A program made the translations under genes and the position numbers. A DNA stretch of 64,000 nt, taken from IMG/VR virus record IMGVR_UViG_3300031616_000001, positions 1 through 64,000 of that record; one strand, given 5' to 3'. Each line of letters starts with the position of its first letter. Within the stretch, counting starts at the first letter, position 1. Below are positions 30,127-44,573 of this stretch, piece after piece. Source of the stretch: a virus. The notes beneath the pieces are model-generated. The model had not been told where the DNA came from. It saw only the letters and a list, made by a program, of their open reading frames with translations, and ran no database searches.

Positions 30127-30443
30127 GGTTTGGCCTCGATGAACCCAGGGATGCGCCGCAGCGTCTCGACCGTCACGCCCTCGTGCTTGAGCGCTAGCCC
30201 GGATTCGCGGATGTAGCCGACGCCGGTCTCGAGGTCGCGCAGGTGCGGCGCCACATCGAGATCGACGCGAATCTCCATCCACGTCGCCACTTCGAACTCG
30301 AGCTTCGAATACGGCAGACCCTGGCCGGGAACGCCCATCAATGGCAGCACGACCAGGCGCTGTTTGAGCAGCGCCTCTGGGACGGGGACCGTGCCGAGAA
30401 CCTTGGTTGCCTGACAACAGCACCTGACCTCCATGCGCTTCAC
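30123..30443 (-). CDS. conserved phage early protein
   Basis: 106 residues from a GTG that overlaps the previous stop (ACGTGA). MEVRCCCQATKVLGTVPVPE at residues 4-23 is typical of a small phage family with a Cys cluster at the start. A beta-rich domain ends EGVTVETLRRIPGFIE. Function unknown. Confidence 0.6.
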   Translation of the reverse strand: MKRMEVRCCCQATKVLGTVPVPEALLKQRLVVLPLMGVPGQGLPYSKLEFEVATWMEIRVDLDVAPHLRDLETGVGYIRESGLALKHEGVTVETLRRIPGFIEAKP

Positions 30444-31036
30444 GTCGGACCTCCGATCAGCTGCTGCTCGCGCCATGCATCGCTCTCGGCGACGGGCTCG
30501 CCCTTGTCGTCGTAGACGGCAAGCAGCGCGCGGGCCCGGTGGTTCAGGTCAGCCGAATAGTTCAGGCCGAGGAGTTCCTTCTCGACGGCCAGCAGCTTCT
30601 CGTCGACGATGGCCTCAACGGCGTTCTCACCGTCGTCGGCGCGCGTGACACGGCCGCGCCAGCGCAGCAGGCGCTTGCGCTTCGTCGTGAGTGCCCGGAC
30701 CTTTTGATTGATGTTCTCCAGCCCCGTGGCAATGCGAATGTCGATCGCCATCGGCAGGTGCATCGCGAAGCTGTCGATGGCCTCGTCCATGAGCACGCGC
30801 AGCAGGCCGGCGGCTTCGATCTCCGCCTGGACTTCGCTGTGCGTGTCGCCGACGTCGTACATGGCGCGCTTGACGGGATCGCTGAGGCAGTCGTAGGCCT
30901 CCTGGATCTCGCGCATCTTCTCGTCGCTGCCGCCGTTGCGATCGGGATGCGCTGACATCGCCTTGCTGCGATAGGCGCGCTTGACGGCGTCGAAGTCGGC
31001 ATCGCGGGCGACGCCAAGGAGTTCGTAGTACGTCAT
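30440..31036 (-). CDS. J-domain (DnaJ-like) protein
   Basis: 198 residues from the ATG at 31036. Residues 1-63 are a J domain: MTYYELLGVARDADFDAVKR, YRSKAMSAHPDRNGGSDEKM with the HPD motif, IQEAYDCLSDPVKRAMYD. No G/F or zinc-finger region; the rest is helical with a coiled-coil-like part. J domains stimulate DnaK ATPase, so this protein may recruit host DnaK to phage replication or assembly, a role lambda reaches through host DnaJ. Confidence 0.85.
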   Translation of the reverse strand: MTYYELLGVARDADFDAVKRAYRSKAMSAHPDRNGGSDEKMREIQEAYDCLSDPVKRAMYDVGDTHSEVQAEIEAAGLLRVLMDEAIDSFAMHLPMAIDIRIATGLENINQKVRALTTKRKRLLRWRGRVTRADDGENAVEAIVDEKLLAVEKELLGLNYSADLNHRARALLAVYDDKGEPVAESDAWREQQLIGGPT

Positions 31037-35977: not shown

Positions 35978-36379
35978 TCAGAAGGGCTGGTCGTTGTCGA
36001 TCTCGCGATGCGACGTCAGGAGGCGATGCCGGTCCGCGTCGGGCAAGTTGTTGATGGCCTCCTTCACGCTGTACGGTTTCATGGGCTCGTGCTTAATGTC
36101 GAATGCCGCAACTTGCGCCGTGGCTTCGTCGCACCAGTTAATCGAGTAGATCGCCGCGGCACCGAAGGATCTGGTGTGTGCTGCGATCTCGCGGATGCTG
36201 ACCACGCGCTCACCATTCCTGAATTCGCTTTCGCGCACTGTCACGGCTGGCACGTCGACGCGAATGAACGCGGTGCCTCCGAAAGCCTGCTCGTTGATGG
36301 CGCCAGCGATACGGGCGTGGCCGAAGAGCTCGACGACCGCGTAGAGCTGAGGAGACTGAAAGTCGTCGATGGAAGGCAT
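35978..36379 (-). CDS. conserved phage protein of unknown function
   Basis: 133 residues. YAVVELFGHARIAGAINEQA and FGGTAFIRVDVPAVTV are typical of a phage/plasmid family with a 'VELxGHxRxAGxxxEQxFGxxxxxRVDVPxV' start. A SFGAAAIYSINWCDE part follows. No agreed function. Confidence 0.7.
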   Translation of the reverse strand: MPSIDDFQSPQLYAVVELFGHARIAGAINEQAFGGTAFIRVDVPAVTVRESEFRNGERVVSIREIAAHTRSFGAAAIYSINWCDEATAQVAAFDIKHEPMKPYSVKEAINNLPDADRHRLLTSHREIDNDQPF

Positions 36380-36491: not shown

Positions 36492-37049
36492 CTAACTCGC
36501 TGGCGGCTTCGCCGGCAGTTCGACGAAATGGAACGGACCGGCCACGCCGGTGCTGAACGTCACGGCCGCATCCAGACCTGCCTGCAGACGTGCCATCGGA
36601 TCGGCGACGCCGCGCAGTGCGTGCATCGCGCCCATGGCGTAGCTTTCACCGCATCCGACGGCTGTGATGTCGTCGATGCACTCGGCGACCTGGAAGTCGC
36701 TGTGGATCGTGAACAGACTTCCGCGGAAGCCGACGATGAAGACACCGCCTTCATCGCGCCCGTTGACCGTCGTCGCGTATCCGCCGCTTTTCAGCGTTTC
36801 TCGGATGGCCGGCACCAGCGCCTTCACGGCGTACTCGAACGGCTGCTGACCTTCGACGATCGCCGGCGGCGACAGGTTGAACTGCAACAGCTGCAGCATC
36901 CTGAATGAAGACGTGCCTCCGATGATTAGGCCGCCGTTGAGGAACACCTTGCGGTCCTTGCGAATGCGCAGGTCCCAGCCGCCGACGCCGGCGCTGTCGG
37001 CACCGAGAATGATCTTGCCCTCGTGGGCGATACCGACGATGCAAGTCAT
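36492..37049 (-). CDS. proteasome/HslV-like Ntn-hydrolase
   Basis: 185 residues from the ATG at 37049. After Met removal, Thr1 begins TCIVGIAHEGKIILGADSAG; Asp is at 17 (GAD) and Lys at 33 (RKDRKV), the exact spacing of the catalytic Thr1-Asp17-Lys33 set of proteasome beta and HslV subunits. Later GVFIVGFRGSLFTIHSD and AVGCGESYAMGAMHAL correspond to the family's 'G.ly..d' strand and 'G.G..yA.gA' Ser/Gly turn near residue 135. No HslU or other ATPase is encoded beside it. It could self-assemble as a protease or amidase, or act with a host ATPase. Fold assignment fairly sure; substrate unknown. Confidence 0.75.
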   Translation of the reverse strand: MTCIVGIAHEGKIILGADSAGVGGWDLRIRKDRKVFLNGGLIIGGTSSFRMLQLLQFNLSPPAIVEGQQPFEYAVKALVPAIRETLKSGGYATTVNGRDEGGVFIVGFRGSLFTIHSDFQVAECIDDITAVGCGESYAMGAMHALRGVADPMARLQAGLDAAVTFSTGVAGPFHFVELPAKPPAS

Positions 37050-37429
37050 GCCGTGACTCCTCTGCGCGCGATCTCTTGTTTCAGCGCGTCTATCTCGGAC
37101 CCCGCGAACATGGTCTGCCGCACGGTGCCATCGTTCGCCGCGTACTCGGCTAGCATGCCGGGCACGAAGCCCCACGGCCGCGCAACTAAGTGGGAGGTGC
37201 AAAGCATTTCGATACCGAGGTACGTGAAGCGCATGCCGATGGCGACTGGCGGGTCGAACGCCATCAACGCAGCCACGGCTGCAGGCAGGGGAGTCACCGA
37301 CGGAGGCGGCACCGCGGATGCGGGTGCAGCCGTCCGGCGACGTTCGGCATTGCGCCCGTCGACGCGACCGCGGACGTAGATAAACACGAACGCGACGGCG
37401 ACGTAGAGGACTGCGGTTAGGCCGTCCAT
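37046..37429 (-). CDS. N-terminally membrane-anchored protein
   Basis: 127 residues. N-terminal hydrophobic helix about 3-20 (GLTAVLYVAVAFVFIYVR), then a basic linker, Pro-rich segment, and a beta region FTYLGIEMLCTSHLVARPWG with a helical end (SEIDALKQEIARRGV). Directly coupled (ATGA) to the Ntn-hydrolase gene, so the two may work together at the membrane. Confidence 0.6.
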   Translation of the reverse strand: MDGLTAVLYVAVAFVFIYVRGRVDGRNAERRRTAAPASAVPPPSVTPLPAAVAALMAFDPPVAIGMRFTYLGIEMLCTSHLVARPWGFVPGMLAEYAANDGTVRQTMFAGSEIDALKQEIARRGVTA

Positions 37430-37431
37430 GA

Positions 37432-39555
37432 TCAGGCGTCCACGTCGTCGAAGACACTGCGCGTGCCGTCGGCGTTCATGAGGGTGCCGTCCTCGGCATA
37501 GAACTGGCCACCCGTCAGCGGAACAGCGCGCAGCGCTGACTTGAGCGCGGCCATCTCATCGTGCGGCACGATCCATGGCCCCGGCTTGCCGGCTCGCGGC
37601 TTCAGGGCTGCCGACTTCATGACGGCGGCGACCGCGGCCAGCAAGGTTCCCGCCGTCTCCAGGTACTTCTTCATGTCGTAGAAGACCTCTGGCGGCGCAT
37701 CAGCAGCGTGCAGCTCGCCGGTCTGCCGCAGATAGCCGATGTACCCCTCATCTGAAGTGATCGAGATCGCCTGCAGCTGATAGTCGCCGAAGTACCTCTT
37801 GCTGGGGACCGATCCTGGCTCGCCGGCATAGCCAAGCGCTTGGAATCCAAGAGAGAAAACGAAGTCTGGCGTCGGTGGCAAAGCCGACGTGCGGATCTCG
37901 AGCCAGCCGACAGGCTTGTTCTGATCGAAGCCGATCAGGATGGGCACGCGCGTGGTGTCCTCGTTGAGTACGACGGGCAGCGTGCCGTCGCCGGGGCCGC
38001 CGGGCAGCGCGTCGGCGGCATCGGTCAGCGCGCCGTGAACCGTTTGGTCGCTGCCCGTCGCCATGTCGACACCGATGACAATCGTCTCACCCTGGTGCAA
38101 TACGTCAGCCATTTCGGCCGGCACGTATCCGCTCGGCGTATCGGCCAGCGCCAGCGCGGCCTTGACGTCGGCCACCTGCTCAACCAGCGGCGGCGCATCG
38201 CGGCTCGCGACCAGCTCGGCCAGGTAGCTGCGCAGGCTGACCAGCGTCGCGTCCTTCACGGCCTGCGCCGAGCCCACGAGGATCCCGAAGTTGGCGTCGT
38301 CGATTAGCCAGGCCTCGGTCTCTGCGATGATCTTCTCGACGTCGTCGACGTTGGCACCGGTGTAGTAGGGGATGCGGCCGACGTGGGCGATGACCAGCTG
38401 CTGGCGAATGCCGTCGATCTGCTGCATGGCCATTTGCGTGCGCTCGGCTGCCGCGGCTTGCTCGTCGCGAAGGCGCCGGGTTTCGGCGTCGGCGGTCTTC
38501 TGGTCGGTCTCGCGCTGCAGGACGACCCTGTGGAAGTCGTGGAGCTCATGCAGCGCCTTGTCGCGCGCCTTGACAGCCACGGCCGCGAACTCGCCGAGCT
38601 CATCGCCGACGGCAACGTGTTCGATCAACGTGACCAGCTCCAGCAGGCCGGCGGCCGACGACGTGAAGGCTCGGCGCTGGATGCGGTCGATCTCGGCCAC
38701 CAGTTCGCTTGCGGCGTCGCTGCGCGCGCGGCGATCGTCGGCGGCCCGCTGCTCGGCTGCGCGCTGCGCGTCGGCGACCCGACGCTGCTCGACGTCGGCG
38801 GCCTCGCGCTGCCGGCGCTCCTCGGCCTCGCGGGTGATGCGCTCGGCGTTCTCGCGCTCGAGTTGCGCGAGGCGCAGGCGGTTCGCTTCGGCCTCGGCTT
38901 CACGCTGCTCGGAAGACTTTGCAATGCTAAGTAAATCGGCCAACTTCAGGAGCGTCTCGGCCTTTGCGTTGACGGCGTGCGGCTCGAACTCTTCGAAGTC
39001 CGCGCCGACGACGATGCGCGCAACCATGTCGATGCGCTCCTGGATCTGCGCCGACGTCATGCCTACCGCGCGCACGGCGACGTTGGTGATGTCGGCGATG
39101 CGATCGCGGTGGCCGGCCTGGCGTTCGGCCTCGGCGGCGTCGCGCTCTGCCTTCTCACGCACCCTGCGCTGCTCGTCTGCGGTGATCTGCTGGTCGGCCG
39201 AGTTGTAGATCTCCTCGGTGATGCCGACGAATCGTTCGGCCTCGCTCTCCAGCCTGATGATCTTCTCGGCGACGCTGGCCTTCAATTCACGCTTTTTGTC
39301 GGCACAGCGCTTCTCGATGGTCGTCATCGTGCGCTTGAGCATCTGCCGATCCTTGCGGGCGCGGTCGTTGCCTTTGATCGTCGTCAAGTCGTAGGCGATG
39401 CCCTTGAGCTTGAGCATCTCGTTCAGGCCGTGGATGAGGTCCTTGTATTCCTCGAGCTCTGTCGAGACAAGTGCGACCTCGGTGCCCGGCGTTTTGTCGT
39501 CGACGACATCAGGGCCTGCCGTGCCCGCGGATTCTTCATTTTCGCTCATGGTCAC
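37432..39555 (-). CDS. large coiled-coil protein
   Basis: 707 residues. N-terminal ~110 residues helical (LIHGLNEMLKLKGIAYDLTT, KASVAEKIIRLESEAERFV), followed by a TolA-like Glu/Ala/Arg coiled coil to about residue 290. A central helical domain (about 290-440) follows, then a beta/alpha C-terminal domain (about 490-700, PVGWLEIRTSALPPTPDFV). The N-terminal part resembles coiled-coil proteins found beside RecT-type recombinases, and recT lies 4 kb upstream in the same operon. The C-terminal domain is not recognised; it may be a fusion. Confidence 0.6.
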   Translation of the reverse strand: MTMSENEESAGTAGPDVVDDKTPGTEVALVSTELEEYKDLIHGLNEMLKLKGIAYDLTTIKGNDRARKDRQMLKRTMTTIEKRCADKKRELKASVAEKIIRLESEAERFVGITEEIYNSADQQITADEQRRVREKAERDAAEAERQAGHRDRIADITNVAVRAVGMTSAQIQERIDMVARIVVGADFEEFEPHAVNAKAETLLKLADLLSIAKSSEQREAEAEANRLRLAQLERENAERITREAEERRQREAADVEQRRVADAQRAAEQRAADDRRARSDAASELVAEIDRIQRRAFTSSAAGLLELVTLIEHVAVGDELGEFAAVAVKARDKALHELHDFHRVVLQRETDQKTADAETRRLRDEQAAAAERTQMAMQQIDGIRQQLVIAHVGRIPYYTGANVDDVEKIIAETEAWLIDDANFGILVGSAQAVKDATLVSLRSYLAELVASRDAPPLVEQVADVKAALALADTPSGYVPAEMADVLHQGETIVIGVDMATGSDQTVHGALTDAADALPGGPGDGTLPVVLNEDTTRVPILIGFDQNKPVGWLEIRTSALPPTPDFVFSLGFQALGYAGEPGSVPSKRYFGDYQLQAISITSDEGYIGYLRQTGELHAADAPPEVFYDMKKYLETAGTLLAAVAAVMKSAALKPRAGKPGPWIVPHDEMAALKSALRAVPLTGGQFYAEDGTLMNADGTRSVFDDVDA
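38917..38931. promoter_or_regulatory. operator-like site inside coding sequence
   Basis: CTTTGCAATGCTAAG is the best match in the window to the 15-bp family and differs from the cro-proximal site at two positions. It is inside the 707-residue gene, where selection for codons alone would not give 14-base identity to other sites. Confidence 0.5.
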
Positions 39556-42236: not shown

Positions 42237-43136
42237 TCAGGCCTCTACGCCGAACTTCTTCGCCGCGGCGATGCGCAGTGCGGCGCGATCGTCTTCAGGC
42301 ATGTGAGCGATGCCATCGAGCAGCAGGTCGACCTCGGCCTGGTTGCGGGCCGTCGTGATGCGCTTGAAGAGGCGTTCGAACTCCGTGGGCTTCACGGCGG
42401 ACGGCGCGAACGCTGCGCGAACCGTAAGCGGCGCCGGCAGCGTGCGCCTTGCGATCTTCTGCAGCTTGGCGGGCATGTCTTCGACGGCCGCGAAGGGCGC
42501 GCGCAGGATGCGCTCGTACTCGTCGACCATGGCCTTGAACTCCATGAGATCGCTCTCGAGCTTTTCGATGAAGTCGTCGTCGCGGTAGATCCGCTTGCGC
42601 CAGAGTTGCTTGCCGGCTGGCGCCAGGGCAGGGCAGTACAGGCAGAAGTCCATCCACTGCCGACGGCTGATCCACAGGCCGCCCTGCACTTGATCGATGA
42701 CCATTGACGTGTCGCCGGTCGTCCAGATCTTGCGAAGCTTCAGCGGTGCCAGGAAGCACTTGTACTCAGCAGATCCATCGTCTTCGATGACACCGTCGAG
42801 GCTGCCGCCGAAGACCTCGTCGTCGGTCATGATGAAGCCGACGCGCTGCACGAACAGACCGATGTCGATCTCGTGCTCGTGCCGCGCGTCAGGCTCGAGC
42901 TCATGCCCGCGAGTCATGTACCACGTCTCGTAGTTCTCATCGAGCGGCTCGCCGCTGATGCGCTCGATGGCAATGCGGAACGCTTCGTCCTTGGCATCGC
43001 TGCTGTACTCACCGGCTTCATCACCACGCTTCAGCCGGGCGGACTCGCGCATCAGATGGAAGTTGGAGCACGTCAGCTTGCCGACGCGCGCCTGCTTCCA
43101 TGGCTTGCTGCCCTGCTCGCAGAGAACTTCTTTCAC
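42237..43136 (-). CDS. YqaJ-type phage exonuclease
   Basis: 299 residues. QGSKPWKQARVGKLTCSNFH at the start is the YqaJ/lambda-Exo beginning; GGSLDGVIEDDGSAEYKCFL carries the Asp and the Glu-x-Lys of the catalytic site; VQGGLWISRRQWMDFCLYCP gives the Gln motif. These 5'-3' exonucleases produce ssDNA for the annealing protein encoded immediately upstream. ATGA coupling with recT. Confidence 0.88.
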   Translation of the reverse strand: MKEVLCEQGSKPWKQARVGKLTCSNFHLMRESARLKRGDEAGEYSSDAKDEAFRIAIERISGEPLDENYETWYMTRGHELEPDARHEHEIDIGLFVQRVGFIMTDDEVFGGSLDGVIEDDGSAEYKCFLAPLKLRKIWTTGDTSMVIDQVQGGLWISRRQWMDFCLYCPALAPAGKQLWRKRIYRDDDFIEKLESDLMEFKAMVDEYERILRAPFAAVEDMPAKLQKIARRTLPAPLTVRAAFAPSAVKPTEFERLFKRITTARNQAEVDLLLDGIAHMPEDDRAALRIAAAKKFGVEA

Positions 43137-44296
43137 TTGGCCGCGCCCTTGCCTTCAGCCGCCTTGATGTCGCGCACGAAGTCGTCGTCGACTTCGCCTG
43201 TGCCGGGATCGGCGGCCTGCGCAGCCGTCTGAGGCGGCGGTGCATCGGCGGTGGTAGCGGCGGCCGGCGCAGGTGCGGACGCCGGAGCGTTGTCGACGGT
43301 GCGCTCGCGGTCGACGGCGACGGCCTTGTCCTTCAGGCGCTGGTGCTCACCGGCGAGCAGCCGGCGATTCTCTTGGCCGGTGCCGGCGAAGAACTTCTGA
43401 TAGGCGGCGACGCCCTTGTCAGCAGCGGTCTCGGCTGCCTTCAGGAGCGCATCGGGAATCTTCGGTCCGACGTCGTCGACCGGGCCCATGTCGCGCGGCG
43501 CGTTCATCTCCTGCAGGTCGTCGACCGTGTGCACGCCGAGCATGCACTGCGGCGCGTACATGCGCTGCCAGAGCTTCTGCGCGAGATAGAAGATCTGCTG
43601 CTGCGGGTTGGTCGTCCACAGCGTCGAGTTGCGCGTCAGCGCCTGCGCCATCAGCACCTCGAGGTACCGCGGCTCCTTCTCACCGGTGAGCGTCGTCCAC
43701 ACCTTGATGCCGAGGCCGACCTCGTCGGCGGGCTTCCAACCGGGCACCTTGTACTTCGCCGGATGGCCGTGATCGTCCTGCTTCTTCTTGCTCTCGCGCT
43801 CTTCGAAGCGGCCGTTGATCTTCGTCCAGTCGCCGAAGTATTCGATGTGCAGCGCCTCCTTGATGGCGCCCATGTTCTTCATCACGGCGCCGATGACCTG
43901 CGACTCGTAGCCGAGCTTGCCATTGATCATGTGCGTCTTCTCCGCGAGGCCGTAGAAGTCCAGGCCCCATCGGTCGGCGCGCATGGCGATCGCCGTGCAG
44001 TCGGCGGCGTTGCCCTTCAGGTGTGCCGGCAGCGTGGCATTGCCCTTCGACACGAACGAGCCGAAGTCCATGTAGGCCTTCATGGCGGCGGCGTTCGTGA
44101 TCTGCGAGAGGCCGAGGCTGGAGTTCTCGGTCATCGCGACGAGCGCCTGCTCGACGCGGGCCATCAGCCGCACGCCATCCGCGGTTGTCGCCAGCTCCGT
44201 CGACGAGCGCAGGTCGCGCAGCAGTTCGGGGATGCCGCCGGCGCTCGGCGCGATGGTCGCGGTGCTGATCTCGGTGCTCGTGTCTTGCGTCGTCAT
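43133..44296 (-). CDS. RecT-family single-strand annealing protein
   Basis: 387 residues from the ATG at 44296. Core: AIAMRADRWGLDFYGLAEKT, HMINGKLGYESQVIGAVMKN, then YLEVLMAQALTRNSTLWTTN and PQQQIFYLAQKLWQRMYAPQ. This is the RecT family signature. The C-terminal 90 residues are Ala/Pro-rich and acidic, typical of a disordered tail. It anneals complementary ssDNA made by the YqaJ exonuclease. Confidence 0.9.
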   Translation of the reverse strand: MTTQDTSTEISTATIAPSAGGIPELLRDLRSSTELATTADGVRLMARVEQALVAMTENSSLGLSQITNAAAMKAYMDFGSFVSKGNATLPAHLKGNAADCTAIAMRADRWGLDFYGLAEKTHMINGKLGYESQVIGAVMKNMGAIKEALHIEYFGDWTKINGRFEERESKKKQDDHGHPAKYKVPGWKPADEVGLGIKVWTTLTGEKEPRYLEVLMAQALTRNSTLWTTNPQQQIFYLAQKLWQRMYAPQCMLGVHTVDDLQEMNAPRDMGPVDDVGPKIPDALLKAAETAADKGVAAYQKFFAGTGQENRRLLAGEHQRLKDKAVAVDRERTVDNAPASAPAPAAATTADAPPPQTAAQAADPGTGEVDDDFVRDIKAAEGKGAAK

Positions 44297-44327
44297 GTCG
44301 GTCTTTCTTCGGCGTTCGCCGTGGTGG

Positions 44328-44573
44328 TCAGATCTTCTCGAGGAGGGCGAGCTCGACGCGCAGCTCGGCCGCGCGCTTCTCGTGGTGCTTGATGCGCTGC
44401 GGCAGACCATCGAATTCGGCCTTGAGGTGCGCGGTGTCGGACTCGGCGCTGGCGATCAGCTTGCGCACGTAGATGGCCTTGAACCAGGCGACGGTCTTCG
44501 CGGCGCCGAGACGGATCAGGTCGCCGGCGACGAGGTGCGGCGCCGAGCGCGTTGGGGTCAAGACGGCGCTCAT
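44328..44573 (-). CDS. helical hypothetical protein
   Basis: 81 residues. GDLIRLGAAKTVAWFKAIYV then AHLKAEFDGLPQRIKHHEKR and a coiled-coil end (ELRVELALLEKI). Overlaps the upstream gene by 4 bp; next to recT. No family recognised. Confidence 0.5.
   Translation of the reverse strand: MSAVLTPTRSAPHLVAGDLIRLGAAKTVAWFKAIYVRKLIASAESDTAHLKAEFDGLPQRIKHHEKRAAELRVELALLEKI

Follow-up and report, generated by a model that had tools for sequence, protein, structure and literature searches.

A putative group I proteasome-like threonine peptidase encoded by a phage, with relatives enriched beside head genes

A survey of the proteasome superfamily described 22 new proteasome homologs, with AAH, PPH and CPH found in phages, and reported for these three neither a known function nor an AAA+ partner nor an informative genomic context (Fuchs, Alva and Lupas, 2021; PMC8665760). 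PPH is a protein of ~140 aa in which helix H2 is missing, and connectase, which is without both helices H1 and H2, is a proteasome homolog acting as a monomeric, specific ligase (PMC8665760). BPH forms a tetradecamer and binds epoxomicin, but standard assays revealed no proteolysis by it (PMC5777263). Experimental studies of phage proteasome homologs were not found in the open-access literature searched. The protein analysed here is of a kind already published (PMC8665760) and catalogued as PHROG 1040, and is less novel than the original prediction for this locus implied.

The gene is carried by a viral record of 118,179 bases, of which the first 64,000 nucleotides constitute the window analysed. 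Its open reading frame lies where it had originally been placed (window 36492-37049, minus strand) and encodes 185 aa beginning MTCIVGIAHEGKIILGADSAG, with the N-terminus Met-Thr-Cys. Because homologues in the alignment begin at the same Met-Thr-Cys, the ATG start is preferred over a longer GTG-initiated frame, and the ATGA overlap suggests that translation is likely coupled to that of the upstream ORF (Table 1). The gene belongs to a run of same-strand genes that includes RecT-like, YqaJ-type and DHH members, and it lies far from the head genes of this phage: small and large terminase subunits and a protease/major-head fusion occupy record positions 88005-92333 on the opposite strand, the fusion itself at 90315-92333. 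A megablast search with the surrounding 15 kb returned no near phage relative.

Table 1. Features of the protease gene and its surroundings (window coordinates unless marked; residues numbered with Thr = 1 after removal of Met; conservation counted over 110 homologues).
Feature	Position	Strand	Basis
Predicted proteasome-like (group I) Ntn-type protease gene, 185 aa	36492..37049	minus	PHROG 1040 E 4.6e-21; AlphaFold2 pLDDT 95.5; BPH/HslV fold matches
ATG of protease	37049-37047	minus	sequence
AGAGGAG Shine-Dalgarno-like site, 7 bases before ATG	37057..37063	minus	sequence
ATGA, stop of upstream ORF overlapping protease start	37046..37049	minus	sequence
Codon of Thr1, predicted N-terminal nucleophile once Met is removed	37044..37046	minus	Thr 104/110, Ser 6/110
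Asp17 codon	36996..36998	minus	110/110
Lys33 codon	36948..36950	minus	110/110
Gly43, equivalent of proteasome oxyanion-hole Gly47	36918..36920	minus	Gly 108/110; aligned with HslV Gly
TSSFRM, start of helix H1, residues 46-51	36897..36914	minus	alignment of 110
Gly-Cys-Gly turn, Gly132-Cys133-Gly134	36648..36656	minus	Cys in place of proteasome Ser129
Downstream ORF, 133 aa, phrog_29525 (function not assigned)	35978..36379	minus	PHROG match
Upstream ORF overlapping the protease start, 127 aa, N-terminus hydrophobic, no match to any family	37046..37429	minus	ORF list, profile searches
Upstream 707-aa low-complexity, coiled-coil-like protein, phrog_1376 (function not assigned)	37432..39555	minus	sequence, PHROG match
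YqaJ-type exonuclease, upstream in same-strand run	42237-43136	minus	profile matches
RecT-like annealase, upstream in same-strand run	43133-44410	minus	profile matches
J-domain (DnaJ) segment of gene 30440-31033, downstream in same-strand run	30854..31033	minus	PF00226 E 3.8e-20
Classical AAA ATPase, 521 aa, AAA domain in C-terminal half	record 85082-86647 (L116:2582-4147), outside window, ~48 kb from protease gene	minus	PF00004 E 1e-31; phrog_8638 E 9e-164

Among profile searches, PHROG 1040 ('peptidase HslV family') matched residues 1-182 and was the sole PHROG matched; head maturation protease families gave no match with the protein. The NCBIfam HslV equivalog models scored far under cut-off (16.1 vs 137 and 15.4 vs 157.75 bits), and Pfam PF00227 (Proteasome) fell below its gathering cut-off (15.3 vs 22.4 bits, E 0.016), so that assignment to the superfamily depends on the family profile together with the fold. 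Searched against solved structures, the 84-sequence family profile recovered HslV (E 3.5e-11) and BPH (E 5e-10), aligned from Thr1, the HslV alignment being full-length. The AlphaFold2 model (84 sequences; pLDDT 95.5, pTM 0.90) arranges helices 49-57, 70-88, 135-144 and 151-165 around sheets, and the alpha-beta-beta-alpha sandwich, whose absence was to have counted against a proteasome-like reading, is present. BPH gave the top Foldseek matches in the PDB (TM 0.73-0.80), followed by HslV, and VIA-align scored the model against proteasome-type chains at Z 17.7-20.5, with model residue 2 paired with chain residue 1. Taken together, PHROG 1040, the family profile and the fold Z scores show that the match to the proteasome-like family is not due to chance, and the protein very probably belongs to the proteasome-type class. 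The original prediction of a proteasome/HslV-like Ntn protease was thus right for the fold and active-site layout, as judged from the model and from residue equivalence to HslV and BPH.

At the residue level, Thr1, Asp17 and Lys33 occupy the proteasome beta positions as claimed, Asp17 and Lys33 being invariant and position 1 holding Thr or Ser. The Ser/Gly turn anticipated near residue 135 exists as a turn, but without the Ser: it reads Gly132-Cys133-Gly134, with Cys at the Ser129 position (Cys in 92 and Ser in 16 of 110 homologues, both Gly in all 110). In addition, the TSSFRM motif is widely shared among the homologues (T 101, S 87, S 104, F 100, R 105 and M 100 of 110) and, on alignment evidence, looks like a signature of the protease's subfamily.

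Compared with the described systems, BPH (PDB 5ovt, 5ovs, 5ovu) is the closest in fold (rmsd 2.3-2.5 over 171-174 residues, Z 20.5); it shares the catalytic layout and is likewise without a known unfoldase. The phage protein differs in being phage-carried, in its ~20% identity, in the TSSFRM motif and in having Gly-Cys-Gly for the Gly-Ser-Gly of BPH, and shows no long acidic insertion of the BPH pore-loop type between helix 70-88 and strand 104-108. HslV (ClpQ), with which comparison had been proposed, has the same fold (Z 19.5, rmsd 2.7) and the same Thr1/Asp17/Lys33 set, but it is not the closest structure, BPH being nearer, and it differs in the model scores, in the Cys at the Ser129 position and in that no HslU was found in the record. 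With AAH, PPH and CPH the protein shares phage carriage, group I membership, Thr1/Asp17/Lys33, the lack of a propeptide and the lack of a companion AAA+. PPH membership is ruled out by 185 aa and four helices including H2, against ~140 aa without H2, so the protease belongs to neither the HslV nor the PPH group. The best guess, which host range and the exclusion of the others suggest, is that it may be AAH-like, and the six named alpha-proteobacterial loci among 14 matches in cellular genomes fit AAH without proving membership.

The distribution of the family shows that the gene is mainly viral. A tblastn search found homologues in 179 phage records at no more than 45% identity, including T5-like, 121Q-like and Vibrio phages. 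In IMG/VR, a single-protein query of viral contigs found nothing and an alignment query was needed to reach 369 loci, the all-homologue alignment being too diverse for use as a scan query. The 14 cellular loci came from the same type of alignment scan, and two of them (L101, L102) look like prophages, since terminase and portal or head genes adjoin the protease gene. Among 289 alpha-proteobacterial genomes, a close member occurred in only two, both already known carriers, which rejects a chromosomal housekeeping gene; a further 28 gave matches of E 1e-13 to 1e-6 and may carry HslV or other homologs.

Several relatives have features of their own. At the record end of Aeromonas phage 2L372X (L012), the neighbouring gp211 and gp001 are both annotated as 'peptidase HslV family' and are possibly a duplicated or two-subunit pair, while two homologues (L007:6001-7167 and L009:6001-6867) bear C-terminal extensions of ~100-200 aa with no assigned function. 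In Moorella phage MTATph1 (L003:6001-6043), the annotated start lies 14 codons late and removes the catalytic Thr, with a homologous TTG upstream. Escherichia phage 121Q (L015:2065-3597) has ClpP-like and HslV-like protease genes almost adjacent. In a T5-family phage, the homologue is flanked by thymidylate synthase and RNase H.

What is new here is that relatives of the protease gene are enriched beside head genes, in several arrangements, and in this the subfamily differs from the 2021 survey, which found no suggestive context. The comparison covered 31 related viral contigs in which a terminase or portal was detected, sampled from the best-matching of the 369 loci; the gene lay within 3 kb of terminase or portal in 19 of them (3.9 expected) and within 1 kb in 13 (1.5 expected). 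None of 5000 shuffles reached either count in a random-placement test, which treats any position as possible and contigs of shared ancestry as separate. After relatives of >65% identity were thinned, 15 of 27 were near at 3 kb against an approximate expectation of 5.1; contigs <60 kb supplied 13 of these 15 near cases, and contigs of at least 60 kb were near in only 2/8. The order may be terminase-protease-portal, portal-protease-maturation protease/capsid or protease-terminase, and in some relatives there are start/stop overlaps with the portal gene. Hitch-hiking in a late operon may account for this adjacency and would look the same.

The HK97-type head maturation protease is also a phage protease and is often encoded near relatives of the gene, but it belongs to another family and is separately encoded in the window's phage, as the fusion already located. 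ORFs of a head-maturation protease/major-head cluster, named from one scanned member, lie near the protease gene in 23 related loci. The suggestion that the protein processes virion proteins is therefore disfavoured insofar as it would replace the head-maturation protease, since this phage, like many relatives, encodes a standard one.

Equally relevant is the question of an unfoldase. Within the window, the original observation that none is encoded nearby holds; the same record, however, carries the AAA ATPase listed in Table 1. This protein may resemble Ycf46-type ATPases. No Clp/HslU-type AAA passed the cut-off in the 118-kb record, which may be incomplete. Among 40 related viral contigs, the phrog_8638 family was matched in two, strongly in one, and Clp/HslU-type AAA (AAA_2) passed the cut-off in three (255-578 kb), with three more weak matches; J-domains passed it in six of 42 records including the window's phage, all of at least 73 kb, and since IMG/VR records can be fragments, the absences are soft. 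Because AAA and J-domain companions are rare among relatives, a dedicated partner is not a general feature; both a dedicated AAA+ partner as a general rule and the J-domain as a conserved partner were rejected.

With moderate confidence in the statement as a whole, the protein is read as an N-terminal threonine peptidase of the group I proteasome-like type that is probably oligomeric and has no dedicated unfoldase. With no propeptide, host methionine aminopeptidase would remove Met and expose Thr1 as the predicted nucleophile; Asp17 and Lys33 would complete the triad and Gly43 would form the oxyanion hole, with Cys at the proteasome Ser129 position. By analogy with BPH and HslV, the subunits would probably form a single or double ring enclosing the active sites. 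With no dedicated phage Clp/HslU-type unfoldase, the enzyme would most likely act on peptides, on unfolded proteins or on proteins handed over by chaperones. In many relatives the protein is produced together with the head genes, as would suit an enzyme that clears scaffold peptides or misfolded head proteins while heads assemble; such a role may not apply to the phage of the window, whose gene lies outside the head module. The direct grounds for this reading are the gene, the fold as modelled, residue conservation, phage distribution, head-module enrichment and the small number of Clp/HslU-type unfoldases in relatives, and confidence stays moderate because we infer the activity, the assembly and the role in head assembly. 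Proteolytic activity should not be assumed, given that BPH, the nearest solved relative, was inactive in standard assays (PMC5777263).

Connectase further indicates that a proteasome homolog may act as a monomeric ligase (PMC8665760), which counts against the oligomeric peptidase reading. A highly specific processing protease or a transpeptidase/ligase of connectase-like specificity, directed at a single phage or host protein (virion or defence), would accord with the lack of general activity of BPH in vitro (PMC5777263), with the position beside head genes in relatives and with a specific pocket that the conserved TSSFRM and the Cys of Gly-Cys-Gly could shape. It is nevertheless unlikely, as helices H1 and H2, both absent from connectase (PMC8665760), are present in the model and a head maturation protease already exists in this phage and many relatives. 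More doubtful still is an HslV equivalent that captures host HslU, or another host AAA unfoldase, and redirects host proteolysis: the fold and active site are HslV-like, but the HslV models lie far under cut-off (15-16 vs 137-158 bits) and the C-terminus varies among relatives, unlike a shared docking tail. Each of the ten bacterial genomes in which a member occurs encodes AAA_2 (Clp/HslU-type) proteins, a count uninformative on pairing because AAA_2 is near universal in bacteria. The AAA ATPase (PF00004 E 1e-31) and the J-domain protein (PF00226 E 4e-20) of the same genome could make the protease, partnered with that ATPase or with host DnaK, part of a phage degradation set, which is very improbable as neither is a regular companion (2/40 relatives for phrog_8638, 6/42 records for the J-domain). 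An Ntn amidase or acylase of another family, for which the fold common to amidases speaks and whose amidase form the original prediction had allowed, is scarcely credible when 50 of 50 fold matches listed (BPH, HslV, proteasome subunits and Anbu) are proteasome-type and aligned from Thr1, with a full-length HslV profile match.

Altogether, phage proteasome homologs are widespread, as the 179 phage records and 369 IMG/VR loci indicate. One branch of the family, whose gene recurs among terminase, portal and capsid genes, may participate in capsid assembly: working beside the head-maturation protease, it would serve head proteins as a peptidase or quality-control chamber that needs no unfoldase, a possibility that is advanced only tentatively. 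The head-module enrichment offers a concrete, testable lead on function where the 2021 survey reported no informative context (PMC8665760).
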